37,859 bases of DNA, from IMG/VR virus record IMGVR_UViG_3300027714_000048, positions 1-37,859 of that record. One strand, written 5' to 3'. The notes beneath the pieces are model-generated. The model had not been told where the DNA came from. It was given only the letters and a program-made list of their open reading frames with translations, and did not search any database. The translations under genes and the position numbers were made by a program. This DNA is from a virus. Shown here piece after piece: positions 3,244-36,861 of the stretch (within the stretch, counting starts at the first letter, position 1; each line of letters begins with the position of its first letter).

Positions 3244-3268
3244 ATCTCTGATCCCCAATATGTACGCA

Positions 3269-3276: not shown

Positions 3277-3304
3277 CATGTGTACAGAAAATTATCTTGT
3301 ACTG

Positions 3305-16974: not shown

Positions 16975-19900
16975 ATGGCTAACACAACACGATCAAGCAA
17001 TCTCTTTGCTACTGAAGACTGGACAAAAGTTTACGAATCATTCAAGGAAATTGACTTCCAGAGTTATGATTTCCAGACCATTCGTAAGAGCATGGTTGAC
17101 TATCTGCGCAACTACTACCCAGAAGATTTTAATGATTATATTGAGTCTAGTGAGTATGTAGCACTTATTGATATGATTGCGTATGTAGCACAGAGTTTAA
17201 GTTTTAGAACAGACTTAAACGCCAGAGAAAACTTCCTTGAAACAGCAGAGCGTAGAGATAGTATTCTCCGCCTTGCTAAAATGCTTAACTACTTTCCTAA
17301 ACGTAGTCAGATTTCACGAGGACTGCTTAAAATTGATAGTGTGTCTACAACTGAGATTATCCTAGATAGTAACAGTAATAACCTTGAAAATACAGAGATT
17401 TTTTGGGGCGATGAAACAAATCCAGACTTCCTAGAACAGTTTACTACTATTATGAACGCTAGCATGGTCAAGACACAGAGATTTGGCAATCCTTCTCTTA
17501 AAACTACAGTGGGCGGGATACAAATACAAGAATATAATATTAGTACAGTTCCTAACTCTATTCCAATTTACGATTTTAGAAACGATGTAAGTGGACAAGA
17601 GTTTTCTTTTGAAGTTGTTAACGGAACTTTCAGTGGAACAGATTATCTGTATGAAGTTGCTCCTAAACCGGGTAGCACTATTAATACAATCTATAGAAAC
17701 GACACCCGCGGGTTTAACAGTATTAATACTGGATTCTTCTTTTACTTTAAACAAGGAACGTTGCAGACACTGGATTTTAATGTTGATGAAGCATTGCCAA
17801 ACCGTGTTGTTGAAATTGACGTTAACGGAATTGATAATAACGATGTATGGTTGTATGAATTAGACAGCAATGGCAAAGAGGAAACCCTTTGGGCTAAAAT
17901 TCCTGCTATTACTGGAAACAATGCTATCTTTAACAGTCTTAACAAAGACACTAAGACATTGTTTAGTGTACAGAGTCGCAGTGCAGATAGAATTAGCCTT
18001 GTATTTGGCGACGGAGTATTTTCAAATATCCCTAAAGGAAACTTTAGAGTTTACTTCCGTGTAGGCAACGGGTTTACATATAAAATTAGTCCACAGGACA
18101 TGAATGCTGTTACATTAACTATTCCATACATAAGCCACAGTTCTCAAGTTGAAACACTTACGGTTAGCATGAGTTTAAAACAAACTGTAGCAAACTCTAG
18201 TGCAAGAGAAAACTTAAACGATGTTAAGGCCAGAGCACAACAACAATACTACACACAGGATCGTATGATTACTGGCGAAGACTATCAGATTTATCCTTTT
18301 ACAAGTTTTAACAACATTATTAAAAGTAAAGCTGTTAACAGAACTAGTAGTGGAGTTAGCCGTTACTTGGATGTTAGAGATACGACTGGAAAGTATAGTT
18401 CAACTAACATCTTTGCAGAGGACGGCATCTTCTACAAAGAAGACACATTACCAACATTTAGTTTTACTTTTATTACCGACAGTGATATCAGCAACACGTT
18501 AGCAACACAAGTTGAGAGTGTGATTCAAGCAAACCCAATGTATCACTACTTCCTAAAAAATTACGGAAGGCTTGATATAACCAATCTAAGTATTACTTGG
18601 AATCAAACAACTATTGGCACAGGAGTTTGCACTGGATTTCTTAAAAATGCTACTCTAAATCCACAATCAATAGCAGGTTTTACCAGTAGTAACTTAAAAT
18701 TCTTTAAAGAAGGAACTCTTGCTAAGTTTTCTGCTCCGGCAGGATATGTTTTTGATGTAAACAATAATTTAGTACTAGGCACAGTTGGTTCGCTTAACAC
18801 TAAAAGTTATATTTGGGCTGGTTGCAGTAACGTTGTTGAAGACGGAGCTAACCTTGGTGCAGGAAATTTAGAAAGCGGAGTTGGGCCTGTAACGCTAAGT
18901 GAAGTTATTCCAAATACTGCTAAGTTAGATGAGATTATCTATCCTTGGAATACTAGTTTTACAAGTACTATCAGGCAGGCAATCATTGATAACATCAGTA
19001 ACTATAAAACATTTGGCATTAGATACGATACAGACACACAAGAATGGGTTGTTATTTCAGGTGTTAATCTTAATCAAACAACTACATTTAACTTGCAACA
19101 TGCTGGTGATTCGACCGGAACCAACCAAGACGCTAGTTGGTTGTTCTTGTTTACTAACGATGGCGAAACAACTACAGTTAAGCACAGAAGTTTAGAGTAT
19201 ATATTTGAAAGTTTCCTTGAAACACGTTTTTACTTTGACAAAGACTTAAAAATCTTTGATCCAAGATCAGGCAAAACTATTAAAGATAAAATCGTCATGC
19301 TTAAAGTTAACAGCCTGCCTGATTCCAATACAGCATTTGGTCAAGATTATATTATGAATGTTGATAGCACTGTAATTGAAGACGATGGATATATTTTAAC
19401 AGAGCGTATTAAAGTAACGTTCCCAGATCAAGACAGTGACGGAGTTATTGATGACCCTGATGTGTTTAATGTGGTAGTAGCACCTGATACCTCAGAAAAA
19501 GTTGTTTTTTATAAGACATATTTAGATAACAGCGGATATACTAGATTTGAGCCAGTAGAAAGCACTAAAGTTGAAAGTGGATATACATCCTTAACTGATA
19601 TTACCGCAGTTCAGAACACTTATGCTAGCGGACAGATATTTTATGCGTCTACTACTGGTAGTTTTTATATCTTGTCAATTAATAATGTTAACGTAAAAAC
19701 GCTAACACAGACAACAGATTATATAACTAAGATCGGCAGAGATAACCTGTTGTTCCAGTATACACACAATAGTCCCAATGACAGGCGTATTGACCCGAGT
19801 CCAAGCAATATCATTGACTTGTTCTTGTTAACAAAAGTTTATGATGCTGACTTTAGAAACTGGATCACGGACTTAACAGGCTCAGTATCTAAGCCAGCTA

Positions 19901-20589
19901 AACCAAGCACCAGCGAATTAAGAGATGCTTACGGCGATCTAGAAAACTTTAAGAGTGTTAGTGACGCTATTGTATTCAATAGTATTAAATATCGACCATT
20001 ATTTGGTGATAAGGCGGACACAGAATTGCAAGCAACGTTTAAGGTAGTAAAAAATACCGCAACACTAGTAAGTGACAATGAAATTAAAGCACGTATTGTT
20101 GAAGAAGTTAATAACTACTTTGCAATATCAAACTGGGACTTTGGCGACACGTTCTACTTTAGTGAACTTGGTGCTTATTTGCATAATGCATTAACTCCTA
20201 ACGTTCTTAGTGTGATTATTGTTCCTAAGTCTAGCACCAGCGGATTTGGTAGTTTGTATCAAATCGCTAGTAACAGGAATGAGATTTTTATTAGTGCAGC
20301 AACAGTTAACGATATTGATATAATTGATGTTATTACTTCCGCTCAGTTACAAGCATCTGGAAATGTTGTAAATACTACTAGTGGCATTACAACCATTGAA
20401 AGTGTTAGTAGCACTGGTAGTTCTACAGCACTAGAGACAACGACAAATACTACAGGTACTACAACTGCATCAACAAGCAGTGCAAGTAGTTCAAGTAGCT
20501 CAAGTAGTGCGAGCAGTTCAAGTAGCTCAAGTAGCTCAAGCTCGTCTAGCAGTTCAAGTAGTTCAAGTTCCGGAGGCTATGGTTACTAA
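16975..20589 (+). CDS. gp6: Baseplate wedge protein gp6, enlarged, with a poly-serine C-terminus
   Basis: Gp6 dimers form the inner ring of the T4 baseplate and link the wedges. The N-terminus is diagnostic: DWTKVYESFKEIDFQSYDFQ, TIRKSMVDYLRNYYPEDFND, YVALIDMIAYVAQSLSFRTD, LNARENFLETAERRDSILRL and AKMLNYFPKRSQ. The central part also follows gp6/gpJ-like proteins (RAQQQYYTQDRMITGEDYQI; PFTSFNNIIKSKAVNRTSSG). The length is 1204 residues against 660 in T4. Extra material includes a Ca-loop-like DQDSDGVIDDPD (residues 818-829) and a Thr/Ser-rich end with a near-continuous serine run at about 1168-1199, closing SGGYGY. The start has AGGAAGG about 7 nt upstream behind its own late promoter. The TAA overlaps the next ATG (TAATG). 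Confidence 0.93.
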   Translation: MANTTRSSNLFATEDWTKVYESFKEIDFQSYDFQTIRKSMVDYLRNYYPEDFNDYIESSEYVALIDMIAYVAQSLSFRTDLNARENFLETAERRDSILRLAKMLNYFPKRSQISRGLLKIDSVSTTEIILDSNSNNLENTEIFWGDETNPDFLEQFTTIMNASMVKTQRFGNPSLKTTVGGIQIQEYNISTVPNSIPIYDFRNDVSGQEFSFEVVNGTFSGTDYLYEVAPKPGSTINTIYRNDTRGFNSINTGFFFYFKQGTLQTLDFNVDEALPNRVVEIDVNGIDNNDVWLYELDSNGKEETLWAKIPAITGNNAIFNSLNKDTKTLFSVQSRSADRISLVFGDGVFSNIPKGNFRVYFRVGNGFTYKISPQDMNAVTLTIPYISHSSQVETLTVSMSLKQTVANSSARENLNDVKARAQQQYYTQDRMITGEDYQIYPFTSFNNIIKSKAVNRTSSGVSRYLDVRDTTGKYSSTNIFAEDGIFYKEDTLPTFSFTFITDSDISNTLATQVESVIQANPMYHYFLKNYGRLDITNLSITWNQTTIGTGVCTGFLKNATLNPQSIAGFTSSNLKFFKEGTLAKFSAPAGYVFDVNNNLVLGTVGSLNTKSYIWAGCSNVVEDGANLGAGNLESGVGPVTLSEVIPNTAKLDEIIYPWNTSFTSTIRQAIIDNISNYKTFGIRYDTDTQEWVVISGVNLNQTTTFNLQHAGDSTGTNQDASWLFLFTNDGETTTVKHRSLEYIFESFLETRFYFDKDLKIFDPRSGKTIKDKIVMLKVNSLPDSNTAFGQDYIMNVDSTVIEDDGYILTERIKVTFPDQDSDGVIDDPDVFNVVVAPDTSEKVVFYKTYLDNSGYTRFEPVESTKVESGYTSLTDITAVQNTYASGQIFYASTTGSFYILSINNVNVKTLTQTTDYITKIGRDNLLFQYTHNSPNDRRIDPSPSNIIDLFLLTKVYDADFRNWITDLTGSVSKPAKPSTSELRDAYGDLENFKSVSDAIVFNSIKYRPLFGDKADTELQATFKVVKNTATLVSDNEIKARIVEEVNNYFAISNWDFGDTFYFSELGAYLHNALTPNVLSVIIVPKSSTSGFGSLYQIASNRNEIFISAATVNDIDIIDVITSAQLQASGNVVNTTSGITTIESVSSTGSSTALETTTNTTGTTTASTSSASSSSSSSSASSSSSSSSSSSSSSSSSSSSGGYGY
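20476..20571 (+). repeat. Low-complexity AGT/TCA/AGC repeat coding the serine tract of gp6
   Basis: About 96 bp of tandem, imperfect AGTAGCTCA / AGTTCAAGT units encode 32 residues, all serine except two alanines. Mixed serine codons (AGT, AGC, TCA, TCG, TCT, TCC) show it is not a pure trinucleotide array, but 6- and 9-bp periods are clear. Length variation by slippage or unequal exchange is plausible. Confidence 0.9.
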
Positions 20590-23500
20590 TGGCAATAAGA
20601 AAAACACAACAGCTATTACCTGAAGTATTTCGCACTAGTAAAAACAAGAAATTTCTAAATGCTACCCTTGACCAATTAATTAGTGAAGACAACAAAATAA
20701 AAGTTAATGGATTTATTGGCAGAAAGAGTGCTGCAAATTTTCAGAAGGGAGACAACTATCTAGTTGAAACTTCAGCTTTTAGACAAAACTATCAACTTGA
20801 GCCTGGGGTAATTTACGAAGATGCGTCTGGTACAGTCCAGAGTGTTAGTAGTATTAACGATGCTTTAAGTACTATAAGGTATAACAACGGATCCACAGCA
20901 AACCAAGACACTCTTTATAGACAACAGTATTACAACTGGAGTGGATATGTTGACTTAGATAAGTTAATTAACTATGGTGAATATTTTTGGTTGCCAGGTG
21001 GACCGGACAGTGTGCAAGTTTTTGCAGATACTATTGATACAACTCAAGACTTTACTGTACTTAGAGAAGGAACAACATATGCACAAATTGAATACGACAC
21101 TGTTGGTTATGACGAAGGTCCATTTGATGAAAGAACTTTATCAGTTGATACTGGAGGATTAAACTATAGGTTTGATGATTCTACTACTACCCCTAACCCA
21201 GTAATATATCTAGCTCGTGGCGGTGAATATACTTTTAAAGTCGATCAAGACGGCGTTCCTTTTTGGATACAGACAGAAATAGGAACATCTGGAGTAAGCA
21301 AAACACAGAAGAATATTAGTACCAGGGATATTTTTGGCACAGTTAACAACGGCGAAGATGATGGAATTATTACTTGGCGTGTCCCTCACACAGATGCCCA
21401 AGATAGATTTACAAGTATGACTGTTGACGCAGATGTTGATGTTGCGACAGACTTAGTATACACTAAAATACACAATCAATCACTAAGTGTTTTCCTAGCA
21501 GCCTACCCAACCGGTATTGACGGGTTAACTGAAATTAATGGAAAGACACTAGTGTTTGCTAACCAAAGTCTAGATGAAACAGATTGGGCAGGACTATCAG
21601 TTGCTGAGAGATACAGTGTTTTTAATATCACAGTTAGCAGCATCAATGATGTTGATACTATTGTTTTATCGTATCTTAAAGATATTACCTCTGGCAACAA
21701 AGTAAGAGTTAAGCAAGGCAACGTTTATGCTAACAAGCAATTATGGAAAAATGCATCTGGGCAACTTGAGTTAATTCCGCCTATTACTGCTAGCCAAACT
21801 GAATTCTTTTATCAAGACGGAAAAGATGCAAATAGATTTGGTAAAATTGTCCTTGTTGATCAAGGCGATAGTGCAGTTATTGATATTAATCAGGACGTTA
21901 TCGGCAGGGAAACATACACTAGTCCTAACGGCGTAGCATTTACAAATGGCCTTAAAGTTGAATTTGATAACAGTGTTACCCCAGATACTTTTCAAAATAC
22001 CGTTTTTTACGTAGAAGGTGTTGGTACTAGTATTAAATTAGTTTCTGAGACATCGTTGTCTACACCAGAAACATATGCTGTAACTGAAAATGAACCTTAC
22101 GACTCTGAAAACTTTGATGTTGGTGGATTTGAAGCTTCATTAAACAGTCCTACGTTACAAGATTATATTGTTATTAACCGCGCAAGTTTGGATAACAATG
22201 CTTGGAGCCGCGGAAACAGGTGGTTCCACCGCTCTGTGCTTGCTGATACAGCAATTTATAATAAATTTACTTTAGTAATTAACGATACTGCTAGAGCAAA
22301 GCGTCCTATTATTGAATTTGATGCTGGCTTGCAACTCTTTAACACAGGAACCACTAGCCAAACTCCTGTTAGCGTAGTCGACACAGAAGAAACAGATGCG
22401 TTTAGTAATGTTAATGGAAAAACTGGATATTTTGCAGATGGTATTAATTTAACTCCGGGGGTAACTGTGTGTTTCAGTGCTGATCCAGATGTTAAGCAGA
22501 ACATTTACCAAGTTAGCCTTATCGATCAAGATAGTAATTTAGCAACTGATCCAATTATTAACCTAACACAAATTGGCACAATTAAAGACGGTGACTGTTT
22601 GCTTAGTAATACGGGAACAACAAATCAAGGAAATTTGTTTTACTACACTAGCTTAACAGATACATGGACACTTGGACAACAAAAAACAAAAATTAACCAA
22701 GAGCCGTTGTTTGACGTATTTGATCCTCAATATGTTAGTTTTAGTGACACAACAAAATATCCAAGCTCAGGATTTATCGGAAGTAAATTATTCAGTTACA
22801 AGAGAAATACTAACAGTGGCGCAGACATAATTTTAGGCTTCGGGTTAAGTTATAGAAATATCAATAACGTTGGCGACATACTTTTTGAAAACAATTATGT
22901 TAACGACAAGTTTACATATACAAAAGCTAATGTCGGTGCTGTTGATGTCATCGTTAGAAGCGGGCACGTACACAAAAACAGTGAGCTTGCTGATTTAGTT
23001 ACCAGAGAATTAAAGAATGGTTGGACAAAAGTATTAAGCGAAAGCAGACAATGGCAACAAGTTCAGTACACTGTTGATGCTGAGTTATTTAGTTTTGAGA
23101 TTGGAGCCTATCCTAAAGTAGATAATGATCAAGTAACACTACAGGTATTTGTTAACGGAGACTTCCAACCTGCTAGCAATTATGTGCAACTAATAACCAA
23201 TGAAAAATATTATGTTAGTTTTGTAACAGCGTTAGCACAAGAAGACGTTGTCCTTATTAGAGCTTACAGCGAAACAGTAAACCCATTAGGGTTTTATGAA
23301 ACTCCTTCTAATCTTGAAAATAATGCTAACAATGACGACTTTAAAGAGTTAACTCTAGGACAGTTACGAAATCACTTTGTTCAACTTACTAGAGAGATAC
23401 CAACATTAACTGGAACCAGTCTTGGCACAAGCAATGCAAGAGACCTAGACTATAAAAAGTATCCAGGAAAGATCCAACAGCATAGTGCTGGAGTAACACT

Positions 23501-26500
23501 TCCGCACTACCTTCTTGCTCAAGAAAATAATAGTTTAATTGAATCGTTACGATTTGGTATGGAAGAATATACTAGATTTAAAAATAGATTAATTGACAAT
23601 ATTAACCGACTTGACATTGACCTAAGAAGCCCAGCTACTGCACTAGACAACATCTTAGCATTTATGACTGGTGTAAAAACCAGCGATTTCCCATTTTACT
23701 ATTCCGATATGTTACCCTGGGGAAGTCAAACAACTACAACAACGATTACACTTGATCAGACTACAGAGAAAGTATTTGAATTTACTACTCAGTTTGATTT
23801 AACAGAAATTAGTAATCGTGGCGTTCTTGTTTACATTACAAAAGACACTAATGTTAAAACTCAGCTTATACAAGGGCTTGATTATACGTTTGATTCTATC
23901 GAACCAGCAATTACTTTAAATTCATTAGTTGCTTTAGCAGTTGGTGATATTATTGAAATAGTTGAATACTCAAATACAGACGGTAGTTTTATCCCGCCTA
24001 CCCCAACTAAGATGGGATTATATCCTAAGTTTAGACCTGCTATTACTCTTGATGACACTTACCAAACTGGAACTAGTACTGGGACTGGTCCGTTTAAAAT
24101 TTATGCAACAGCAGACTCAAGATATTCACAAAGAGCACAAGGGGTTAGCGGATGGTTCTATCCATTGTACACAACAAACGCCGCGGCACAGGCGGCCGAT
24201 GTAGGTAACGCAGCGCATGCTCATAGATTCGTAGGCAGTGACAGACTGTTCTATATGCCAAATTCTGCAGCGAACCACGGTGCTGTAAACACAGACGGTT
24301 ATACAGAATATGAAAACTATACTCCGGTTATTCAAGGTCACGACGGTAGCCGCTGGGTTGCATACAAGGATCGTAGAGACGACATTATACTTGAATTTGA
24401 AAAACGTGTATACAATAATATAAAAACTCAATATGATGCACAAACCTTTGATATTGCTGAAGTAACTCCAGGGTACTTTAGAAGTTCATTTACGGACCTA
24501 GAACAGACCACGCAGATTCATACGCAATACATATCGAGTTGGGCAAACAAAAATGCATTAGATATTTCTACAAATACTGTGCATGATGCAAATAACTCTT
24601 TTACTTGGAATTATAGCGATGCTGTAGTTGCTGGTACTACCACTAGACTGCCTGGATTTTGGAGAGGGATTTATCATTGGATATACGATACAGAAACTCC
24701 ACACTTAACTCCCTGGGAAATGCTTGGTATTTACGAGAAACCAGACTGGTGGGATGCAAGATACGGAGTCGCTCCTTATACTCGCGGTAACCGTGTTTTG
24801 TGGGAAGACTTAGAAGCAGGTAAAATTTACAATGGATCAGGAAGAGATGCAACGCATACTATCAATCTACTTCGCGTCCGCACTGGCTTAACAAATATGA
24901 TCCCAACTAACGACCAGGGACAACTGCTTGCCCCTAATCAATACCTAACTCAAGGAGCAATTTCTACTAATACAGAAAGAAGCTGGAGAATTGGCGATTA
25001 TGCTCCGGTAGAAGCTGCTTGGAGACGTAGCAGTGAAATGCCTTTTGCAATGCAAATTATTTCAGCATTAAAACGTCCAGCAAAGTACATGACACTGTTA
25101 TGGGATACAAACCTAGTTGAGTACAACAAAGATTATGACCAAATACTTCAGCGTTACAAGAGTTACAGAGCTAGTATTGCAGCCTTTAGAGTCAACGGAG
25201 TAGTACAGACAAACTCTACTGTAGTTGATAGAGTGGAAGGTTACAATCAGTTTATTTCTAATTTCTTCCAATACACTAGTTTAAATCTTGTTGCATTAAG
25301 ATCAACAATTCAAAATTTAAAACTTAAACTAATATATGCAGTAGGCGGATTTACAGACTTAACGTTGTCTAAGATGCTCATAGAGTCTTCTAGTCCTAGC
25401 AGTACTGGAAGCAATATCTTTATTCCAGACGAAAACATGAGCGTTTATCTTAATAAGAGTACACCGTTAGAAAGAGTATTCTACAGTGGTGTTAGCATTA
25501 TTAAACGAGCCAATGGTTACGAGATTCGTGGATATGATACAAAAAATCCATTTTTTAAGATTGTTCCTAGTATCCGCAGCGACAAGAAAAGCATTATAAC
25601 TGTTGGTAGTGCCAGCGCAGTAATCTACAGTGATAGCCTGAACTATATTACTAGTGTTCCTTACGGTACTGTAATTGCAAGTGTTCAACAAGTTTGCGAT
25701 TTCCTAATTGCGTATGCAAGGTACTTAAAAGTAAAAGGCTTTACCTTTGACACTGTTAACAGTGACGGCAAAACTGTTGATTTTGAAAATACAGTTTCTG
25801 AATTCTTATTCTGGACACAACAAGGCTGGGGAAATAACTCAGTATTCGGCGCAAGTCCTGCATACAAAACTTTAGTAATTGACCGAGAGCTAACAACTCT
25901 AGATGATTTAAGTAAAACTGGATCACTTAAAAATACTGATAGCAAAGCAATCCGTCCTACACAGTATAACGTAGAAAGAATTGATAATAGAACTACTATT
26001 ACTGTTGATGACAGCAAAGACTATTTGTATGCTGCTCAAGTTGATCCAATTCAATACGAGCATTATATTGTATTGGACAATACAACTATATTTAATGACA
26101 TCATTTACCAGCCTGAACTAGGAAATAGACAGGCACGAGTAAAGTTCGTTGGATATAAATCAGGAAGTTGGAACGGTACGTTGCATGCTCCAGGATTTAT
26201 TATTAACAAGAATGAGTTTAATGTTTGGACACAGAACACAGATTACAAAAAAGCAGACATAGTAACTCACAATAAAAAACTCTTTGTTGCTACAGATAAC
26301 CACGAAGGTCAGTCTAAGTTTGATTTTAATAACTGGCGCCCAGTAGATAATATGAAAACTGGAATGTTGCCTAACATAACACAAAAAGTTGATAGATTTA
26401 ATAAGTTTTATGACTTTAATGAAACTAACTTAGAAAATACTCTTGACCAAGCCGCTAAAGGACAGATTGGATTTAGAAAAAGAGATTATTTAGACCAACT

Positions 26501-29500
26501 TGGGTTAGATGATGTTAGCCAAGTTAAGTTTTATCAGGGAATGATTAAAACTAAAGGAACGCCCAACGTTATTGATAAGTTAATTGGTGCTAATTTAACT
26601 AACACGGTCTCCGGCACCAAAAGTCTAGATCAAGAAATTACCTTCTATGAAGAGTGGGGATTCCGGGTTGGCGAATACGGTAGTATTGACAGTAATCAAG
26701 TTATTGACCTTGTTATTGACGAAGCCCGTGTCCAAGAAAACCAAACAGTGGTTCAACTATTAGATAGCGGCGACACAGCAGACTCAGACTACTACACGTT
26801 TAAAAAGAAGGATATTTACAAGTTACCTAATAATTTTAGCAAAAATATTTTCTTTACTAGAGATGCAAATGTTAAGAAAACTGATATTGTTGGTGCTGGA
26901 CATCCAAGACTAGATGACGTAAGTTATACACTGTTTGATCTAAACAACATTGCAGAACTTAACATTGACATTGATAAGATTGGACGCGGCACAACTATTT
27001 GGACAGCTAAAAACGACTTTGATTGGAACGTATACAGGGTTACAGAAGTAGGGGTAGAGATCAGTGAGGTGGCACAGGGCGCCAACGGATTTATTACGTT
27101 AACTGCTACAGCAAATCACGGCCTTGTTAAAAACGATATTGTCCTAATTAAGACAAACAATGAAGTTGTTAAGGGTTTTAAAACTGTTAGTAGCATTGAC
27201 TCGCCGCGCACGTTTAATGTTAGCATTGGTAATGATGTTGAAATTGATGACATTACTAACCTAAGATTACCAATCTTTAAACTAGTAAGTTCACGTTTTC
27301 AAACCATAGCAAGCATTGCAGATACCACTCCACTTTTTGGATGGGACGAGGACGAAGTTGTATGGATTGACTATGATGAAAATCAACTTTGGGCAGCATT
27401 TAAAAAGCAAGAGCCGTGGGATTTTAACAAGTTAATTTTTAACATTGATAGTTCCGGCAGTGCTAATAACGGATCTAGTCTAGCAATATCAGACGACTCA
27501 CTAAATGTTTTCTCTGGTGCTCCAAACCAAAATAATGGGGTTGTTCATCCATACCTTAGCGATGATGTAGGCATTTACAATCCTGGGTCTACATTAGCGC
27601 CAGCTACGATTGGAAATGATATATCTGGATTTGGCACAGCCAGTGTAGCAGGTAAGACGTGGGCAGCTTTTGGTGCTCCAAATAGCGTTAGTAGCGACGG
27701 ACTTGTGATAGTATATCAAAGAGCATCTAATGGAATTTACGATTCAAAACAATGTTTAGGTATTGGGCCACACAGTAATAATTCACCTAAGTTTGGATTT
27801 AATTTAGCTATGAGCAAGGATGACAGATACTTGTTTGTCTCAGCACCTGGCGAAAATACTGTTTATTGCTATGCACAGAAAGTTATTGCTACAGTTGATG
27901 AAGAGGTACAAACTGTAACTGGAACTGCCAGTTCAACAACAGCCTTTACACTAACGTGGACACCAAGTAGTGTATACAGTCTTCATATTCTTGATGAAAA
28001 TTCTAAAGAATATGTGCCATACAAAGATTACAATATTAATGGTGCAGTGCTAACATTTACTACTGCTCCTGCCAATGGACTAAAAGTTGTTGTAAGAGAA
28101 GGCACTCATTACGTGTTAGTAGATACTATTACTGGCAGTAGTTCAGCAACAGGTGATCAGTTTGGATTTAGCATTGATTGTGATACTGCTGGCGATACGC
28201 TGGTTGTTGGCGCACCGTATGCAGAAGTAACAAACTCAAGTTCAGCAAGTATTACTGATGCAGGTGAGGCTTATTTGTTCCACCACATTGCAGAAAAGTT
28301 TACTGCCAATGGAACAGTGTTTGCGTTCACCACAACAAATACACTACCTGAACAGTTTTATGTTGAAGTTGACGGGGTATTACAAACGCTTACTGATGGC
28401 GGCGATGTTGGCGGACTTGATACTGACAGTAGTACAAACCGCTACTCGGTTAGTAATAAAACAATAACATTTAGATATATTCCAGCAAGCGGTAGTATAG
28501 TTAAAGTATACACTGGCGTCTTTGCTGAGATACAACTACTAAATCAACTTAGTACTAGCAACGAACCAACAGACAGCGAAAACTTTGGTTTTGATGTAAG
28601 TATTGATGCATACGGTGCTATTGTTGCTGTTGGCGGACCAGGCGAAGATGAACTTAATCCTAATACAGGCTCGACAAGTATCTTTATTGACGAAGGGCTA
28701 CGTTTTGGTAGTGTTACCACACAGAACTTAAACGTTGGTACGTTTGCCGTGCAAAACGACTCTGTGTTTATTGATGATTTTGAAGTAAGAATTACTTTAA
28801 ACACTAGTGCTGATTCAACTGGATTAGTAGATGACATTAATAATTTAAATCTTACTACTATAGTTGCCGAAACAATTGGCACAACTAATTTGTTAATTAC
28901 TGGCAGTGCTGGAGTTGCTAACAAAAAACTTAAAGTACGTCCTGGCACTGGAGATACGTTCCGGGCACGAGCAGAAGTAGAGCCATTTAAGTTTACACAA
29001 AAACTAAACCATCCACTGCTTGCAGAGAACGAAAACTTTGGTAGAGTGCTTGAATTTGACAAATATATTCCACTTGATTCTGTTAACGAGCAAAGATTAG
29101 TAATTAGTAGTGACCGTGCTAGTACACAACTACGTATGGGACTAGACCGCGACACAGATACAAATAGTGCAACACATGACGAGTTTACAACTACATTTGA
29201 TGCTGATAGTACCAAATATATTGATAAAGTGTCACAAAGTGGGGCTGCTTACATATACGATTTGTTGGATAGCAGTGTAACTCCTGGGCTAGTACAAAGC
29301 ATATCTAATCCACCTAAGTTTGCATTTGGACAACAGATGCAAAACACAAAGATTAATGAACTAGATCAGTTTGGAGGAAGTTTAGCAATTAATCGCGAAA
29401 AGTTATTTGTTGGTAGTCCTGCAGACAACGAGTGGCTAACAAACGCAGGTAGTTTTTACTACTTCCAAAACGCTACAGATACAAGTACATGGGAAAAGAC

Positions 29501-32500
29501 CCGGGTGCAGACTCCTAAAGTAGATCCTGACGTTATTAACCGTATTGTGACATACGACAAAACTAATAACCAGATCATTGATTTTGTCGACACAGTTGAT
29601 ATATTTAAAAATAAACTGCCTGGCCTTGCTCAGCAAGAACTTGATTATATTCTACCAATTGACCCAGCGACATACAATATTAGCACAACTCGAAATAGTG
29701 TTACGTTCTCTGAAACAGGCGGATGGAACAATGAGAAACTTGGCAGAGTTTGGTGGGACTTATCTACTTGTAGAGTTATTGAATACGAACAAGGCGACAT
29801 TGATTATCGCGTCCAACATTGGAACCAGTTCTTCCCAGGATCTAGTATTAACATTTACGAATGGGTAGAATCTGATGTATTGCCAAGTGAACACGTTAGT
29901 AGTGGATTATTAGGAACACCTAAGTTTCAAGACGATAGTAACTATTGTACTGCTCCGTATTATAATAGTATTACAAACTCAACTACAATACGGTATTATT
30001 ACTGGGTAACTGATATTAACACGTTCCCGAGCGATGAGCGTAGACAACTTAGTACTGAGGGAGTTCGACAGCTTATTGAAAATCCTATTTCAACAGGAAG
30101 TAAGTACCTGAGTGTTGTAGCACCAAATACTGTTGTCCTTAATAACCTAACAAATAGTTTTTCAGATAAAAATACTGTACTTAGTATTAACTATGACGTT
30201 GTTAAAAACGAAGGAATAGTGCATTCAGAGTTTGACTTAGTCAGTGAAGGTGATCCTGGCCAAGTAATTCCTGCTAGAATACAAAGCAAGATTATTGACA
30301 GTTTAGCTGGTTCAGACGCAACTGGCGCTGTTGTTCCAGATCCAATCCTAAGTGTGGGCGATAAGTATGGCATCAGTATCCGTCCACGCCAGTCGTTGTT
30401 TACAGACAGACAACAAGCACTAAAGACATTTATTGATTACTGTAATAAAGTTTTCAAAACAACCCCTATTGCAAGACAGTATACCTTAGATACACTATTC
30501 CTAAGCGACCCTATACCAACAAAAGCTAGCGGTGCGTGGGATAAAAAGGTAGCAGACATAACTACAAGGGATTATTTAAACCTAGCAACTTTTAATATTG
30601 GATATAAAGTTTTAGTTGAATCTGATAGCACAGTTGCTGACGACTGGACTATTTACGAACTTAGAGAAACCAGCACTAGTATTAGATATTGGTTCCTACT
30701 TCGTGTACAGGCTTACAATACCGCCAAGTTTTGGGATTATATAACTTGGTATGCTACTGATTTTGATAGCACTACTATCCCAACTTACACAGTAGCAACT
30801 GAGACAGACTTATTGACGCTTATTGCTGCGGTGTCAGGAGAGACTGCCAAGGTGCGTAGTAATGATGACGGTAACTTTAGCTTCTTTAAACTAGGGGATA
30901 CCGGCACTTGGCAAGAAGTTATTATTGAGAAAGGAACTGTTGAACTAAAGAGTACATTGTATGACTTTGCCAATGCAGCAAATGGTAGTTATATTGGATT
31001 TGACAGCGGTGTTTATGACTTTGAAAAGTTTGACAGAGTTCCACACCAGGAAGTTAGAAATATTGCAACAGCAATCTTTACTGACATCTTTAAAAATGAA
31101 CTAGCAATTAAGCGTAACGATCTATTCTTTAGAATGACCGAGTTTGCAATGCAAGAGTTGCATGAAAGCAGCACAGACTGGATTGTAAAAACTAGTTTCT
31201 TAAAAGTGTTACATAAAGTTAGAAATTTAAACCAGTATCCAACCTACCAACTTGATAATTCAACATTTATTGAAGAGTATATTAATGAAGTAAAACCTTA
31301 CCATACCACTATACGTGAGACGGTTGCAAAGTATGATGGTGATGATAAGTTCCAAGGCGATGTAACTGATTTTGACTTACATGCATTTTATGACAGTACT
31401 AATGGACATTTTAGGAAATACAGCGGTGACTACCAGGGAGACGATGTTTCTAGAAGTATCAGTGGCACAGTTGATTCCCCATGGTCAGACAACTATAGTT
31501 ACTACTTAGATAGTGTTGTGTTACACAACGGAGGAACAGGATACACTGATAATCCAGTTATTACAGTTAGTGCCCCTGATCTAACAACAGGAACTCAAGC
31601 AGTTGTAACAGCGGTTACCAATGGTTCTACTATTATTCGTGTTACTGTTACTAATAAAGGCAGTGGATACACTAAAACTCCGACTATTACCAGTTCAGTT
31701 GACAGCAATGGCACTGGATTAGTATTGTTACCAAGGATTAAAAACGATCAAATTAGAGAGTTTGACACAACCATTAAATTTGATAGAATTTCATATAGCT
31801 CAACCGTTAAAGACTGGGCTGCATCTACAACGTATTCTCACTTAGATCTGATCTCTTACTATAATGCAAATACTAAAAAGCAAGACGTATATCAAGTTGA
31901 TGTGACAGGCGGATTTACTAGTGGCACAACATTCACTGTTGAAGATACTACAGGCGCAGTTGCTCTTGTGGTATATGCTGACGCTAGTCTAGCAAGCTCA
32001 GCAGACAGAATTGCGGCATACTATGCTCCAACAGAAGGCATGGTTGGCGACGATTTATCTTTACTCCAATCAGGCACAGGATACGAAAGCAATAAAGTAT
32101 CTGGAATAGGATTTGACAGAGAGCCAGGATTTGACGATGCAAGTTTTGATAATGTAGGGTTTGATGACTTTGAAATTGATATAAACGGACTAACAGTGTT
32201 AGGCGGTTCCAATGCACTTGACACTACTATCTCTAGCGTGTTTACAGATGCTGCACTTGGTACACGGCCAGAAGATATTAATATAGATGGCGGCGGCTTT
32301 GTTGACATATATGCAAGTCATGCTCCTGAAGAAGTAGTTCCTGGTATTGTATTTGATAATTTAGACATGGAAGTATACACTGATCCAAGTGATGATTTTG
32401 CTGGTGACGGAAATAGCTTTACTACAGTTTCTAGATCTTATACTGCTGACGGCATAGAAAAACAATTCTCATATGCTGGAACATCTCAGCGGGAACAAGT

Positions 32501-34241
32501 TGACTTCTTGATAGTATACGTTGGCGCGACTAGATCATATAACTTTACTGCTGATTTCGAACATAGGACAATAACGCTTAATACAGTTCCAACAGCTAAC
32601 ACCAATATCTACATTTATGGTTATGGAGTCACTGGTGAAAAAATTGTTTACGAAAAATCATTTATCGGAGATGGTAGCACTCTTGCATTTACTTTGGGTC
32701 TTAACTTTGACAGATTTAAACAAAGTTTGGTACTTAGAGATGGTGTAAATATTGAACACACTATTACTGAAGGATCAATTGGTAGATCTATACTTACAAC
32801 TTCCGATGTTAGTAGTGACGGATCACTAATACATGTTATTATTAGTAGTAGGGATACAGACAAATCAGCGTTTACATTTGGAGAATCACAAGAGATTACG
32901 CTAGATGGCAGTTCTTTAGTTTATAGTTTAACAGACTCATTTGATCCAGGGTTTAGCAACGCAATAACTGGCAATGTAATTGTTGAACTAAACGGTCATA
33001 GATTGCGACCTGCTAATGCAGCACATTATATACTAGATGGGTCAACTACAGCATTTAGAACACCAGTAACTGCTGGAGAGACTGTAACAAACGTATCTAC
33101 AGGAGATATTGCAGTTTCAAGGATTGATGCGGCAACAAATACTACATTTAATTTGCTTAATACCCAGGACTATACTATAACTAGTCAAGAAGATACTGAC
33201 AGTACTCTGTTTTACAGAGTCAACTTATTAGATCCTCATAGTTTTTCAAATGATACACTAGTAGTGTCAGTTCGCAATGCTAACGAATACTTTATTGATA
33301 GTACTGCAAACACAATTAGACTAGATAGTAGTGTAAGTTTTAGTGCTAATGATAAACTTCGTGTTACTAGCTTTAATAACTATGATCCTCTCCGTATACA
33401 AACTAAAGTATACATTGGAAAAGGTTCAGAAGTTACACAAAGCATTGATCAGTTTGATCAAGTAGCATTCGATAGTGCCTCTTTTGACAGACTAGCAATA
33501 GGCGGCAATGCGGTAAGTAAATATGGAATGGATCGTGTTCCAACAGATACTGATAACTTGTGGATTACTTTAGATGGAGTAAGACTACATGCTGGCGAGT
33601 ACGCCGTTAGTAATACTGGGAAGATTGACTTACTAAACCAAACAGTAGGCGCCGCAAGTGAAATTATTGTAACACACTTCAGTGAAAAAACTATTGAGCC
33701 TACTATTGGCTACAGAATGGTTAACAATATGTTAGGCAACTACGAGTACTTTAGGATATCAACAGATGGTGCTACTAAATTAACAACAGATGTTCTTCCA
33801 ACAGATACTAAGATATATCTTAAAGATGCTAGTAAACTTCCTCAGCCAAGTACTGATTCTAAAATTCCAGGTGTAGTATATGTTGGTAATGAAAGAATTA
33901 CATACTGGCAGATTAGTTACGAAGAAAACTATATTACTCAGGTTAGACGTGCTACAAATGGAACACGATTTGCTGGTATCCATAGGGCTGGAACAGAGGT
34001 ATACGATACCACTAATGCACAGAAGTTGCCACAATCAAATACACATACACAGACATGGTATACAGTTGGCGCATCAACTGCCGCAAACGGATCTGGATTA
34101 CAAAGCTCGTTGAGTTCAAATGCTAAGTTCCTTAAAGCTTCTGAAACGTTTGTTCCTAACTACCTGCAGGAATTAGAGAATCCAAAGTATTTGATAGATG
34201 GATATGTAGCAGAGTTTTATGTTGCAGATTTAGAATTATAG
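20589..34241 (+). CDS. Giant virion structural protein (4550 aa) with an FG-GAP-like beta-propeller
   Basis: One uninterrupted 4550-residue frame, probably a baseplate or tail-periphery protein given its late operon with gp6 and position before the fibres. The N-terminus reads AIRKTQQLLPEVFRTSKNKK. Visible parts: an aromatic-rich region at about 1355-1475 (GFWRGIYHWIYDTETPHLTP; EKPDWWDARYG); about seven FG-GAP-like repeats at 2295-2960 (e.g. FGFSIDCDTAGDTLVVGAP, FGFDVSIDAYGAIVAVGGPG, FGGSLAINREKLFVGSPAD); two GSGYT-type beta repeats near 3650-3715 (GGTGYTDNPVITV; GSGYTKTPTITS); recurring FD-x3-FD segments; and a C-terminal domain from about 4360 (EPTIGYRMVNNMLGNYEY; RRATNGTRFAGIHRAGT). Its ATG overlaps the gp6 stop; GGAGG encoding the end of gp6 lies 12 nt upstream. 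It occupies the place of gp7/gp8-type wedge genes, but I see no motif proving homology. Confidence 0.85.
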   Translation: MAIRKTQQLLPEVFRTSKNKKFLNATLDQLISEDNKIKVNGFIGRKSAANFQKGDNYLVETSAFRQNYQLEPGVIYEDASGTVQSVSSINDALSTIRYNNGSTANQDTLYRQQYYNWSGYVDLDKLINYGEYFWLPGGPDSVQVFADTIDTTQDFTVLREGTTYAQIEYDTVGYDEGPFDERTLSVDTGGLNYRFDDSTTTPNPVIYLARGGEYTFKVDQDGVPFWIQTEIGTSGVSKTQKNISTRDIFGTVNNGEDDGIITWRVPHTDAQDRFTSMTVDADVDVATDLVYTKIHNQSLSVFLAAYPTGIDGLTEINGKTLVFANQSLDETDWAGLSVAERYSVFNITVSSINDVDTIVLSYLKDITSGNKVRVKQGNVYANKQLWKNASGQLELIPPITASQTEFFYQDGKDANRFGKIVLVDQGDSAVIDINQDVIGRETYTSPNGVAFTNGLKVEFDNSVTPDTFQNTVFYVEGVGTSIKLVSETSLSTPETYAVTENEPYDSENFDVGGFEASLNSPTLQDYIVINRASLDNNAWSRGNRWFHRSVLADTAIYNKFTLVINDTARAKRPIIEFDAGLQLFNTGTTSQTPVSVVDTEETDAFSNVNGKTGYFADGINLTPGVTVCFSADPDVKQNIYQVSLIDQDSNLATDPIINLTQIGTIKDGDCLLSNTGTTNQGNLFYYTSLTDTWTLGQQKTKINQEPLFDVFDPQYVSFSDTTKYPSSGFIGSKLFSYKRNTNSGADIILGFGLSYRNINNVGDILFENNYVNDKFTYTKANVGAVDVIVRSGHVHKNSELADLVTRELKNGWTKVLSESRQWQQVQYTVDAELFSFEIGAYPKVDNDQVTLQVFVNGDFQPASNYVQLITNEKYYVSFVTALAQEDVVLIRAYSETVNPLGFYETPSNLENNANNDDFKELTLGQLRNHFVQLTREIPTLTGTSLGTSNARDLDYKKYPGKIQQHSAGVTLPHYLLAQENNSLIESLRFGMEEYTRFKNRLIDNINRLDIDLRSPATALDNILAFMTGVKTSDFPFYYSDMLPWGSQTTTTTITLDQTTEKVFEFTTQFDLTEISNRGVLVYITKDTNVKTQLIQGLDYTFDSIEPAITLNSLVALAVGDIIEIVEYSNTDGSFIPPTPTKMGLYPKFRPAITLDDTYQTGTSTGTGPFKIYATADSRYSQRAQGVSGWFYPLYTTNAAAQAADVGNAAHAHRFVGSDRLFYMPNSAANHGAVNTDGYTEYENYTPVIQGHDGSRWVAYKDRRDDIILEFEKRVYNNIKTQYDAQTFDIAEVTPGYFRSSFTDLEQTTQIHTQYISSWANKNALDISTNTVHDANNSFTWNYSDAVVAGTTTRLPGFWRGIYHWIYDTETPHLTPWEMLGIYEKPDWWDARYGVAPYTRGNRVLWEDLEAGKIYNGSGRDATHTINLLRVRTGLTNMIPTNDQGQLLAPNQYLTQGAISTNTERSWRIGDYAPVEAAWRRSSEMPFAMQIISALKRPAKYMTLLWDTNLVEYNKDYDQILQRYKSYRASIAAFRVNGVVQTNSTVVDRVEGYNQFISNFFQYTSLNLVALRSTIQNLKLKLIYAVGGFTDLTLSKMLIESSSPSSTGSNIFIPDENMSVYLNKSTPLERVFYSGVSIIKRANGYEIRGYDTKNPFFKIVPSIRSDKKSIITVGSASAVIYSDSLNYITSVPYGTVIASVQQVCDFLIAYARYLKVKGFTFDTVNSDGKTVDFENTVSEFLFWTQQGWGNNSVFGASPAYKTLVIDRELTTLDDLSKTGSLKNTDSKAIRPTQYNVERIDNRTTITVDDSKDYLYAAQVDPIQYEHYIVLDNTTIFNDIIYQPELGNRQARVKFVGYKSGSWNGTLHAPGFIINKNEFNVWTQNTDYKKADIVTHNKKLFVATDNHEGQSKFDFNNWRPVDNMKTGMLPNITQKVDRFNKFYDFNETNLENTLDQAAKGQIGFRKRDYLDQLGLDDVSQVKFYQGMIKTKGTPNVIDKLIGANLTNTVSGTKSLDQEITFYEEWGFRVGEYGSIDSNQVIDLVIDEARVQENQTVVQLLDSGDTADSDYYTFKKKDIYKLPNNFSKNIFFTRDANVKKTDIVGAGHPRLDDVSYTLFDLNNIAELNIDIDKIGRGTTIWTAKNDFDWNVYRVTEVGVEISEVAQGANGFITLTATANHGLVKNDIVLIKTNNEVVKGFKTVSSIDSPRTFNVSIGNDVEIDDITNLRLPIFKLVSSRFQTIASIADTTPLFGWDEDEVVWIDYDENQLWAAFKKQEPWDFNKLIFNIDSSGSANNGSSLAISDDSLNVFSGAPNQNNGVVHPYLSDDVGIYNPGSTLAPATIGNDISGFGTASVAGKTWAAFGAPNSVSSDGLVIVYQRASNGIYDSKQCLGIGPHSNNSPKFGFNLAMSKDDRYLFVSAPGENTVYCYAQKVIATVDEEVQTVTGTASSTTAFTLTWTPSSVYSLHILDENSKEYVPYKDYNINGAVLTFTTAPANGLKVVVREGTHYVLVDTITGSSSATGDQFGFSIDCDTAGDTLVVGAPYAEVTNSSSASITDAGEAYLFHHIAEKFTANGTVFAFTTTNTLPEQFYVEVDGVLQTLTDGGDVGGLDTDSSTNRYSVSNKTITFRYIPASGSIVKVYTGVFAEIQLLNQLSTSNEPTDSENFGFDVSIDAYGAIVAVGGPGEDELNPNTGSTSIFIDEGLRFGSVTTQNLNVGTFAVQNDSVFIDDFEVRITLNTSADSTGLVDDINNLNLTTIVAETIGTTNLLITGSAGVANKKLKVRPGTGDTFRARAEVEPFKFTQKLNHPLLAENENFGRVLEFDKYIPLDSVNEQRLVISSDRASTQLRMGLDRDTDTNSATHDEFTTTFDADSTKYIDKVSQSGAAYIYDLLDSSVTPGLVQSISNPPKFAFGQQMQNTKINELDQFGGSLAINREKLFVGSPADNEWLTNAGSFYYFQNATDTSTWEKTRVQTPKVDPDVINRIVTYDKTNNQIIDFVDTVDIFKNKLPGLAQQELDYILPIDPATYNISTTRNSVTFSETGGWNNEKLGRVWWDLSTCRVIEYEQGDIDYRVQHWNQFFPGSSINIYEWVESDVLPSEHVSSGLLGTPKFQDDSNYCTAPYYNSITNSTTIRYYYWVTDINTFPSDERRQLSTEGVRQLIENPISTGSKYLSVVAPNTVVLNNLTNSFSDKNTVLSINYDVVKNEGIVHSEFDLVSEGDPGQVIPARIQSKIIDSLAGSDATGAVVPDPILSVGDKYGISIRPRQSLFTDRQQALKTFIDYCNKVFKTTPIARQYTLDTLFLSDPIPTKASGAWDKKVADITTRDYLNLATFNIGYKVLVESDSTVADDWTIYELRETSTSIRYWFLLRVQAYNTAKFWDYITWYATDFDSTTIPTYTVATETDLLTLIAAVSGETAKVRSNDDGNFSFFKLGDTGTWQEVIIEKGTVELKSTLYDFANAANGSYIGFDSGVYDFEKFDRVPHQEVRNIATAIFTDIFKNELAIKRNDLFFRMTEFAMQELHESSTDWIVKTSFLKVLHKVRNLNQYPTYQLDNSTFIEEYINEVKPYHTTIRETVAKYDGDDKFQGDVTDFDLHAFYDSTNGHFRKYSGDYQGDDVSRSISGTVDSPWSDNYSYYLDSVVLHNGGTGYTDNPVITVSAPDLTTGTQAVVTAVTNGSTIIRVTVTNKGSGYTKTPTITSSVDSNGTGLVLLPRIKNDQIREFDTTIKFDRISYSSTVKDWAASTTYSHLDLISYYNANTKKQDVYQVDVTGGFTSGTTFTVEDTTGAVALVVYADASLASSADRIAAYYAPTEGMVGDDLSLLQSGTGYESNKVSGIGFDREPGFDDASFDNVGFDDFEIDINGLTVLGGSNALDTTISSVFTDAALGTRPEDINIDGGGFVDIYASHAPEEVVPGIVFDNLDMEVYTDPSDDFAGDGNSFTTVSRSYTADGIEKQFSYAGTSQREQVDFLIVYVGATRSYNFTADFEHRTITLNTVPTANTNIYIYGYGVTGEKIVYEKSFIGDGSTLAFTLGLNFDRFKQSLVLRDGVNIEHTITEGSIGRSILTTSDVSSDGSLIHVIISSRDTDKSAFTFGESQEITLDGSSLVYSLTDSFDPGFSNAITGNVIVELNGHRLRPANAAHYILDGSTTAFRTPVTAGETVTNVSTGDIAVSRIDAATNTTFNLLNTQDYTITSQEDTDSTLFYRVNLLDPHSFSNDTLVVSVRNANEYFIDSTANTIRLDSSVSFSANDKLRVTSFNNYDPLRIQTKVYIGKGSEVTQSIDQFDQVAFDSASFDRLAIGGNAVSKYGMDRVPTDTDNLWITLDGVRLHAGEYAVSNTGKIDLLNQTVGAASEIIVTHFSEKTIEPTIGYRMVNNMLGNYEYFRISTDGATKLTTDVLPTDTKIYLKDASKLPQPSTDSKIPGVVYVGNERITYWQISYEENYITQVRRATNGTRFAGIHRAGTEVYDTTNAQKLPQSNTHTQTWYTVGASTAANGSGLQSSLSSNAKFLKASETFVPNYLQELENPKYLIDGYVAEFYVADLEL
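27475..29470 (+). other. FG-GAP-like repeat region (putative seven-bladed beta-propeller) within the giant protein
   Basis: About seven repeats follow the pattern FG-x-S/N-hydrophobic ... D-x-L-V-V-G-A-P ... G-x-hydrophobic-Y-x-F/Y. Starting positions are about 27475 (SLAISDDSLNVFSGAP), 27631 (FGTASVAGKTWAAFGAP), 27793 (FGFNLAMSKDDRYLFVSAPG), 28161 (FGFSIDCDTAGDTLVVGAP), 28585 (FGFDVSIDAYGAIVAVGGPG), 29037 (FGRVLEF...RLVISSD) and 29371 (FGGSLAINREKLFVGSPAD). This is the signature of integrin-alpha-type propellers. Between blades there are insertions of 50-150 residues, including fibre-like strands. The classical DxDxDG calcium loops are not evident. Confidence 0.7.
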
Positions 34242-34275: not shown

Positions 34276-36861
34276 ATGGCAATCGTATTAAGAAGCAACC
34301 TAAGTGTTCCCCTAACCCACGCAGAATTGGACGGGAACTTTACTGACCTAAACAGTAGAACTACTGCGATAGAGGCAAACTACGTTAAAACCATCAACGG
34401 CGTAGCGGCTACTAGCAATGCAACTACACTTACTACAGTAAATATTACAGAAAATTCTGCAAATTTATACTATACAGATGCTAGAGCAAGAGCTGCACTT
34501 AGTGTAACAGGAGGCAACTTAGAATATAACAGTAGTACAGGCCTTATTACATTAACTGACCTTGAAATCCGAGATCAACTTAGCGCAACTACAGCAACAG
34601 GTGTTACTTATAATAGCTCTACAGGTGTTACTGCACTAGCAAGTATTCCCAATAGTAGTTTAGCTAAGAGTACTATTATATCTAAAGGCGACAGTGGGCA
34701 GACGGCAATTGATCTAGGAGATACATTAACATTTACAGGCGGTGAAGGAATTGATACCGCACAAAGCGGAGATACTTTAACTATTAGTGCAGAAAACGCT
34801 ACAGCAAGCAATAAAGGTATTGCTAGTTTTAGTTCAAACCATTTTGGAGTTAGCAGTGGCGCAGTAACTATTAAAGCAGATGGTATTGACGACACACTTA
34901 TTGATTTTGGTACAGGTACCAATCAAGTTAGTACAGCAGACGTTCCAGAACAAACAAATTTATATTATACAGATGCCCGTGTTTTAACTAAAATTAAAGC
35001 AACTAGCATTAATGAGCTCAGCGATGTTACACTAGGAACAACATCAAACAGTTTTGTATTAACCTTTGATGCATCTGTATCCAAGTTCATTGCGGCGGCA
35101 AACCCTGGTGCAGCCAGTGGTAACATTAACACAATAACAAACTTAGGTAGTGGAAAAAAAGTCTTCTCAAATGCTGTTAGTCTCGATCTAAGATTAAGAA
35201 CCTTAACCGAAGGCAATGCTGTTACATTAACAGAAAACACCAATGACATCAATATTGCGGTTAGTGAAACTCCAACATTTACTAGTGTTGCTACTGCCGG
35301 AATTAATATTAATGGCAATGAAATTTTAACAACAAGATCTAACGAAAATTTAGAACTAAATCCAAGTGGCACTGGGGTAGTTCAAGTATTAAGTGCTATG
35401 ACTGTTTCAGGAGCAATTACTGGTAATCTTACTGGTGATGTTACTACGACCGGTATTAATATTACTGCTAATAATATTACTACTACACGCACCAATGACA
35501 ACTTAGTATTAATTACTAGTGGAACAGGTGTAGTTGAAGTCGATAGCAATATCGATATGAACAGTAATAAAATTGTTAATGTTACTGATCCAACCAGTTC
35601 TCAAGAGGCGGCTACTAAAGCATATGTAGATTCAGTAGCCTCTGCAATTAGTACAACATCAATTCAAGCTGGAAACAGTAATGTTGCAGTAGTAGATTCA
35701 GGCACTGGCAACGTAACCATCGAGGTTGATGGCACAGACAGAATTACAACTATCGCCGCAAGTACAACTACTGCAACTGGACATGGGTTAATTATTGGCG
35801 CCGCAAGTACTAGTGCCGCTGGTACAATTAAGTTTTTAGAGGGAACAAATAACGGAACAAACGGAGTAACGTTACAAGGTCCTGCAAGTACAGCAGATGT
35901 AACAGTTTTACTTCCGGCCGCAGCGGATACACTAGTTGGTAAAGCGACAACAGATACATTTACAAACAAGACGTTTGATCTTGGTGGAACAGGAAATAGT
36001 TTAACCGGGTCTTTAGCAGAGTTTAATTCAGCACTGCAAAGTGAAAGTTTTGTTTCTTTAACAGGGTCTGAGACCCTCACTAATAAGACTCTAACTACTC
36101 CTGTGCTTACAACCCCAATCGCAAATGCAGGTATACAACTTAAGAACGGCGCAACAAGTGCAGGATTTATTGAGTTTTTTGAAGACAGCGACAATGGAAC
36201 TAACAAGGCTACGTTGATAGGTCCTGCTAGTACAGCAGATGTTACTATTACTTTACCAGCAACAACTGACACATTGGTTGCTCGTACAACTACAGACGTA
36301 CTTACTAATAAAACACTTACAACTCCTGCGCTTACTACACCAACTGCAAACAATGGTATACTCCTTAAAAATGGATCCACAAGTGCTGGTTTCTTGAAGT
36401 TTTTTGAGGACTCAGATAATGGAACAAACGGTGTTACACTAATTGGACCTGCTTCAACTGCTGACGTTACTGTAACATTGCCAGCAGCAGCAGGTACTTT
36501 GCTTGGTACTGGTAACGCAGATGTAGGAGCATCAACTACCGCTGGCGGTGACGCAGACTTTGTCTTAATTGATGATGGCGGTGTTCTTAAGAGGATTTCA
36601 CCTGAGAACTTGGGTATTGCAGGTAGTAGTCTTGGATTTGTACTTAGTTCATTTACTACTACTCCAGGATCAGAAGGAAACTTTGATTTAGCAAAAATAC
36701 AAGCACAAACAGGCAGTGCTGAGACTGGGTTAACAGCAAGCGGTCTTGATGCATTTGGGGTTCAAACAGGTGCCAGTTCGGCTGTGTATGATCTAATGGA
36801 TCCTAAATTCTCAGACAAGACAACAGATTACGGTTCAGGCGAATCACATGCAGGTGCATAA
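34276..36861 (+). CDS. Tail fibre protein (861 aa) with repeated modules
   Basis: A late structural protein likely to contact the host. The N-terminus (AIVLRSNLSVPLTHAELDGN, then FTDLNSRTTAIEANY) is the usual attachment-end sequence of many marine phage fibres. NLYYTDAR occurs twice (near 64 and 230). A middle part has GTGVVQVLSAMTVSGAITGN and the AATKAYVDS motif typical of trimeric fibre shafts. The last third contains repeated modules of about 74 residues: NKTLTTPVLTTPIANAG, LKNGATSAGFIEFFEDSDNG, TLIGPASTADVTITLPA. The C-terminus (YDLMDPKFSDKTTDYGSGES) has no recognisable peptidase or chaperone. The ribosome-binding stretch is weak (GGAAAAATA). The next gene carries a closely similar module. 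Confidence 0.85.
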   Translation: MAIVLRSNLSVPLTHAELDGNFTDLNSRTTAIEANYVKTINGVAATSNATTLTTVNITENSANLYYTDARARAALSVTGGNLEYNSSTGLITLTDLEIRDQLSATTATGVTYNSSTGVTALASIPNSSLAKSTIISKGDSGQTAIDLGDTLTFTGGEGIDTAQSGDTLTISAENATASNKGIASFSSNHFGVSSGAVTIKADGIDDTLIDFGTGTNQVSTADVPEQTNLYYTDARVLTKIKATSINELSDVTLGTTSNSFVLTFDASVSKFIAAANPGAASGNINTITNLGSGKKVFSNAVSLDLRLRTLTEGNAVTLTENTNDINIAVSETPTFTSVATAGININGNEILTTRSNENLELNPSGTGVVQVLSAMTVSGAITGNLTGDVTTTGINITANNITTTRTNDNLVLITSGTGVVEVDSNIDMNSNKIVNVTDPTSSQEAATKAYVDSVASAISTTSIQAGNSNVAVVDSGTGNVTIEVDGTDRITTIAASTTTATGHGLIIGAASTSAAGTIKFLEGTNNGTNGVTLQGPASTADVTVLLPAAADTLVGKATTDTFTNKTFDLGGTGNSLTGSLAEFNSALQSESFVSLTGSETLTNKTLTTPVLTTPIANAGIQLKNGATSAGFIEFFEDSDNGTNKATLIGPASTADVTITLPATTDTLVARTTTDVLTNKTLTTPALTTPTANNGILLKNGSTSAGFLKFFEDSDNGTNGVTLIGPASTADVTVTLPAAAGTLLGTGNADVGASTTAGGDADFVLIDDGGVLKRISPENLGIAGSSLGFVLSSFTTTPGSEGNFDLAKIQAQTGSAETGLTASGLDAFGVQTGASSAVYDLMDPKFSDKTTDYGSGESHAGA
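36079..36510 (+). repeat. Two tandem fibre modules of about 222 bp, with a diverged copy upstream and another in the next gene
   Basis: Module copies begin near 36079 and 36301 (222 bp apart) and encode TNKTLTTP...TP.AN.GI.LKNG followed by FFEDSDNGTN and IGPASTADVT.TLPA. A more diverged copy occurs at about 35815-35930 (IKFLEGTNNGTNGVTLQGPA). A close copy lies in the following gene at 37091-37300. Several stretches agree at DNA level, for example caacttaagaacgg.gcaac at 36136 and 37150. Confidence 0.85.

Follow-up and report, generated by a model that had tools for sequence, protein, structure and literature searches.

What would an integrin-like beta-propeller be doing in the middle of a giant phage protein? 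Animal integrins use a seven-bladed ring domain for adhesion, and a domain of this kind was predicted, from sequence alone, within a very long open reading frame of the virus record IMGVR_UViG_3300027714_000048 from IMG/VR. The window, by which we mean the whole stretch of DNA that was analysed, is 37,859 nucleotides long and represents a 37.9-kb fragment of the phage genome. The original prediction placed about seven FG-GAP repeats at 27475-29470, proposed that they close into a seven-bladed, integrin-like ring, and assigned the whole to a giant tail or baseplate protein of the virion, suggesting a large adhesin.

The giant open reading frame and its neighbours

The open frame in question (20589-34241, plus strand) encodes 4550 amino acids and comes directly after a gp6-like gene. 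Four further IMG/VR contigs carry it without truncation, and it matches phrog_10938, annotated "virion structural protein", in five stretches with a score of 1098 bits. Immediately upstream lie genes for a gp25-like baseplate wedge protein (16547-16918, plus strand; phrog_261 and phrog_43, baseplate wedge subunit) and a gp6-like one (16975-20589, plus strand; phrog_10646, baseplate wedge subunit, 981 bits), which are themselves preceded by a gene like that for the baseplate hub and tail lysozyme. The gp6-like and giant frames overlap by one base, the last base of the former being the start of the latter, and the order of gp25- and gp6-like genes followed by the giant-protein gene is common to phages PA5oct, GAP32, Atu_ph07, Phosso and Vibrio 2.275. 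In the PA5oct record, the homologue EST35_0128 is annotated as detected by ESI-MS/MS, and on the strength of that mass spectrometry and of the gene context the 4550-residue product very probably forms part of the baseplate of the virion. The predicted location in a giant tail or baseplate protein is thus borne out by the phrog_10938 match and the wedge genes, with virion status assigned by homology.

Several other features of the window deserve mention. A serine-rich tandem repeat with a 9/36-base period occupies the 3' end of the gp6-like gene (20474-20568), just before the giant frame. Beyond that frame lie adjoining fibre-like open reading frames (34276-36861 and 36926-37858) that have repeated modules of the TNKTLTTPVLTTP and FFEDSDNGTNKATLIGPASTADVT type in common. 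On the minus strand, a 663-residue product encoded beside the portal gene (1288-3279) carries an RTX-like GGSGDDTLAGGAGNDRL stretch near its C-terminus and has no match among the PHROG profiles, and a 288-residue product (5845-6711) adjoining an SbcC-like gene resembles a radical SAM enzyme on inspection by eye, with cysteines clustered towards its start; in Phosso, too, an annotated radical SAM gene lies close to the tail genes. A search for the host through genome contigs gave two distant MAG contigs, too little to name a host.

Seven FG-GAP repeats and a predicted propeller

The Pfam family FG-GAP_2 (PF14312) matches the whole protein with 41 bits, well over the curated cut-off of 23 (E 2.2e-10), and the 777-residue segment taken alone with 51 bits (E 1.2e-13), its matches falling at three places within the predicted block. 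A repeat model located seven FG-GAP units at residues 2293-2959 (27465-29468), so that the predicted number and position of the repeats both stand. All are on the plus strand. Repeats 1 (residues about 2293-2322; 27465-27557), 2 (about 2348-2376; 27627-27719) and 3 (about 2401-2428; 27789-27875) were found by the repeat models; repeat 4 (about 2524-2564; 28158-28286) coincides with the best FG-GAP_2 match (28119-28280); and repeats 5 (about 2665-2699; 28581-28688) and 7 (about 2927-2959; 29367-29468) were found by the repeat models and by Pfam. Repeat 6 (about 2816-2846; 29034-29135) is degenerate, being located by the first repeat model and missed by a stricter HMM. When the repeat HMM was rebuilt from more distant relatives, it recovered six of the seven repeats in the block and zero further FG-GAP repeats in the remainder of the 4550-residue protein, and with shuffled versions of the segment it gave a single match in 8 of 500 and more than one in none of the 500. 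Because the window's own repeats seeded the HMM from which the rebuilt one derives, it is the Pfam match that constitutes the independent test.

AlphaFold2 modelling of residues 2198-2974, with an 82-row alignment of relatives that are 19-69% identical to the window, gave a mean pLDDT of 90.4 and a pTM of 0.91. The structures listed by a Foldseek comparison of this model with the PDB are almost wholly integrin alpha headpieces, and VIA-align 2 superimposed the model (its residues 78-773, corresponding to 2275-2970 of the giant protein) on integrin alphaM with a Z score of 39.0 and an rmsd of 2.7 A over 359 aligned residues. When the PDB was searched by sequence, neither the whole protein nor the alignments A1, A2 and A3 (A1 and A3 being the conserved blocks described below) gave anything credible, and the integrin connection therefore rests on Pfam and on fold. 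The domain, which with its extra small domains extends over residues about 2275-2971 (27411-29501, plus strand), is thus strongly predicted to be the closed, seven-bladed, integrin-type propeller that had been proposed. That the repeats should instead form a linear beta-solenoid or a set of unrelated modules is very improbable, for although AlphaFold2 supplied with five close relatives only gave a pLDDT of 34 and no usable model, the confident model from the deep alignment and its likeness to integrin alpha propellers, as well as the FG-GAP_2 match, argue against it.

Three segments enlarge the propeller between its blades. The small domains inserted between repeats 3 and 4 (27888-28124, plus strand) and between repeats 4 and 5 (28284-28544, plus strand) are related to each other (hhalign probability 78%, E 1.8e-5); for the insert between repeats 5 and 6 (28689-28988, plus strand) hhalign detected no kinship to these two. 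A possible weak recurrence of the inter-repeat domains was seen near the C-terminus of the giant protein, at residues 4018-4075 (hhalign probability 15-34%). There are no DxDxDG calcium loops in the window's propeller and no RGD motifs in its insert, and a DxDxDG match anywhere in the insert occurs in only 5 of 96 propeller-bearing relatives. Since calcium loops of this type are missing, we do not call the domain an integrin; it is an integrin-head fold without its metal sites.

A slot with alternative occupants

Cultured relatives of the giant protein align with it on either side of the propeller, which they themselves do not match. The flanking regions are conserved block A1, upstream (residues 1240-2190; 24306-27158, plus strand), which is 26-31% identical to its counterparts in cultured jumbo phages, and block A3, downstream (residues 2965-3640; 29481-31508, plus strand), which likewise aligns with the cultured homologues. 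Profiles of both blocks were run on IMG/VR relatives and yielded 111 non-redundant proteins with both flanks, in which the slot measured between fixed profile ends ranges from 110 to 1598 residues, with a commonest length of about 770. By the repeat model, FG-GAP blades are present in the slots of 96 of the 111, at four to eight units each, a proportion that does not represent a frequency in nature because the relatives were picked for resembling the window or some other member. Pfam FG-GAP_2, which is independent of the repeat model, is matched by 50 of the 57 inserts scanned. In four relatives, 221 to 357 kb in size, such FG-GAP matches as were found all lie inside the single homologous open frame. 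A DNA-level search of phage records with the block gave no match, and tblastn of the propeller alone against cultured phages gave weak matches only (best E 0.03).

The other 15 slots hold a linker or insert of at most 399 residues (six), a GDSL-lipase-type domain (six), a YHYH domain (one) or modules totalling about 1280 residues (two). This last content, in Atu_ph07 and Phosso, consists of modules common to other virion and baseplate proteins. In a different part of the Phosso record (PV764938.1, about 48-69 kb), far from the baseplate gene, giant frames of 3702 and 3182 residues hold most of its 42 FG-GAP_2 matches. The GDSL-type occupants (L239, L243, L255, L259, L263 and L264; e.g., L239:12557-14551) keep an HGxxDA-like stretch, and four of the six have a DGIHP signature; no GDS nucleophile motif was recognised in any of them, and they may therefore bind rather than cut, as far as their sequences indicate. 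YHYH and FG-GAP occur together in two slots (L088:12905-16441 and L094:12932-16462), and YHYH occurs without FG-GAP in a third (L209:2981-4246); the YHYH domain has been described as a predicted tail-associated metal hydrolase (PMC7824862). The propeller thus fills a slot whose place between blocks A1 and A3 is fixed and in which relatives carry alternative domains, an arrangement that is new here and that the original prediction had no means of seeing.

Inheritance and conservation of the propeller

A tree of the upstream block calls for three changes in the FG-GAP state; on it, GDSL and YHYH forms are nested within the FG-GAP group, and a linker form is sister to an FG-GAP form. The tree was built with FastTree and has some long branches, and we have used only its coarse pattern. 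Within the window's own clade of 25 relatives, the insert has a mean identity of 48%, as compared to 57% and 58% for the flanks, and is the least conserved of the three parts in 98% of pairs, while its divergence tracks that of the flank (rho 0.79). On these sequence comparisons the propeller is old and inherited with its gene, only occasionally replaced, and diverging somewhat faster than the regions around it. Frequent swapping of modules at the slot was also considered and is rejected, since the insert follows the phylogeny of its host gene. Within the propeller, conservation across the clade of 25 is highest in the loop of repeat 5, PGEDELNPNTGS (28638-28673, plus strand), and residues 2686-2700 have a mean majority-residue frequency of 0.85.

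Possible functions

The best explanation for a slot with such different contents, from a propeller or some other domain down to a bare linker, is that it lies at the baseplate surface. Among the tasks that a propeller might perform there, host adhesion seems the most likely by analogy with two precedents at baseplates, namely the five-bladed propeller of the phi11 receptor-binding protein Gp45 and the seven-bladed propeller of phiKZ gp131C at the baseplate edge (PMC4901313). The repeats, the gene context, the conserved slot and its alternative occupants are observed; from the mass spectrometry of a homologue we infer a virion location, and we further infer exposure of the slot and host binding. 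The explanation that we favour, with middling confidence, is as follows. The 4550-residue protein would be a very large part of the contractile-tail baseplate of a jumbo-type phage, belonging to the wedge or to the periphery, and the slot between its two conserved blocks would display one domain on the baseplate exterior. In the window's phage and most relatives that domain would be a propeller enlarged by small beta domains, which would touch a glycan or protein of the host envelope as the baseplate lands; adhesion would thus be part of the baseplate itself, in addition to separate fibres. The lower conservation of the insert relative to both flanks also speaks for this explanation. Some of the evidence counts against the adhesive part of this explanation. 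The propeller is stably inherited, unlike host-range domains, which are frequently shuffled; there may be a fixed partner within the virion for the conserved PGED loop; and the GDSL-fold occupants, having no GDS motif, do not amount to proof of a host-facing enzyme.

Beta-propellers are common protein-interaction scaffolds, and because this one is inherited rather than swapped, a serious rival, to which we would give perhaps one chance in three, is that it makes no contact with the host and is instead a docking platform for tail fibres, receptor-binding proteins or neighbouring wedges. Docking fits almost as well as adhesion, given that inheritance is vertical and stable and that one loop of repeat 5 is close to fixed, but it would be odd for an essential joint that some relatives manage with a linker of 110-200 residues in the slot, or with a domain unrelated to the propeller. 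It is rather improbable that the propeller is a passive element contributing size or stability, with no specific partner: conservation below that of the flanks and replacement in relatives fit such a role, but 96 of the 111 non-redundant relatives have kept the domain despite being deeply diverged, and some of its loops are strongly conserved.

To return to host adhesion, a broader and distinctly speculative extension would be that a whole group of jumbo phages, widespread and mostly uncultured, has an integrin-type propeller as a host-contact head built into the wedge, in a payload slot that holds a GDSL-fold or a YHYH domain in relatives, at about six copies per baseplate (a figure taken by analogy from the sixfold T4 wedges), and that contact could report landing and help to trigger contraction. 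The slot, with its exchangeable occupants, is in any event a concrete place to seek host-contact functions in jumbo phages whose receptor is unknown, and the propeller's borders are sharp enough for expression and testing of the domain.

Comparison with known systems

Like T4 gene 7, the giant gene directly follows gp6. The product is not, however, detectably gp7: hhalign, which compares sequence profiles only, gave A1 and A3 a probability of at most 0.3% against T4 gp7, and the same held for the core blocks against VrlC of Syn33, VrlC being the proposed gp7 substitute in cyano- and pelagimyophages, i.e., marine myophages (PMC7029224). No relation was detected between the core blocks and T4 gp8, T4 gp10 or the giant protein that follows gp6 in Syn33. 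By sequence, then, the protein holds the gene position of T4 gp7, yet is recognisable neither as gp7 nor as VrlC. Among known systems, those closest to it include the phrog_10938 proteins of jumbo phages like Rak2, GAP32, PA5oct and Atu_ph07, which belong to the same family and have the same conserved blocks flanking the slot and the same place after gp6. Unlike the window's protein, the six cultured members that were checked have no FG-GAP match in their slots, which hold linkers of 110-202 residues, 399 residues in SCTP-2, and about 1280 residues in Atu_ph07 and Phosso.

FG-GAP repeats or predicted propellers of like shape are found in proteins of uncultured Caudovirales (A0A6J5L8L4 and A0A6J5S3H5), S-TIM5 (H6WG31) and Atu_ph07 (A0A2L0UZX4), and in the prasinovirus MntV1 (PMC11467894). 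Likeness of fold to these other viral proteins does not by itself show shared origin. With the integrin alpha propellers (alphaM, alpha4 and alphaV) the phage domain has in common seven FG-GAP blades, and superimposes on them with Z scores of 36-39 and 2.6-3.0 A over about 350-378 residues at 14-17% identity. It differs from them in having no DxDxDG calcium loops and no known beta subunit, in the additional small domains that follow repeats 3, 4 and 5, and in sitting inside a 4550-residue protein.

The propellers of phi11 Gp45 and phiKZ gp131C resemble the one described here in being at the baseplate, and that of phiKZ also in its seven blades; the FG-GAP label was not found for either in the accessible part of PMC4901313, and both belong to separate receptor-binding candidates, whereas here the propeller is an internal domain of a giant protein at the wedge position. 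In literature whose coverage omits most subscription journals, we found no paper joining FG-GAP with the phage baseplate, and the matches for FG-GAP with phage tails were unrelated, as judged by title and abstract. Baseplate propellers have so far been few in number and parts of separate receptor-binding proteins; to these can now be added an integrin-type propeller that is predicted to lie, as a conserved domain, within a giant protein in baseplate position across a large group of environmental phages.
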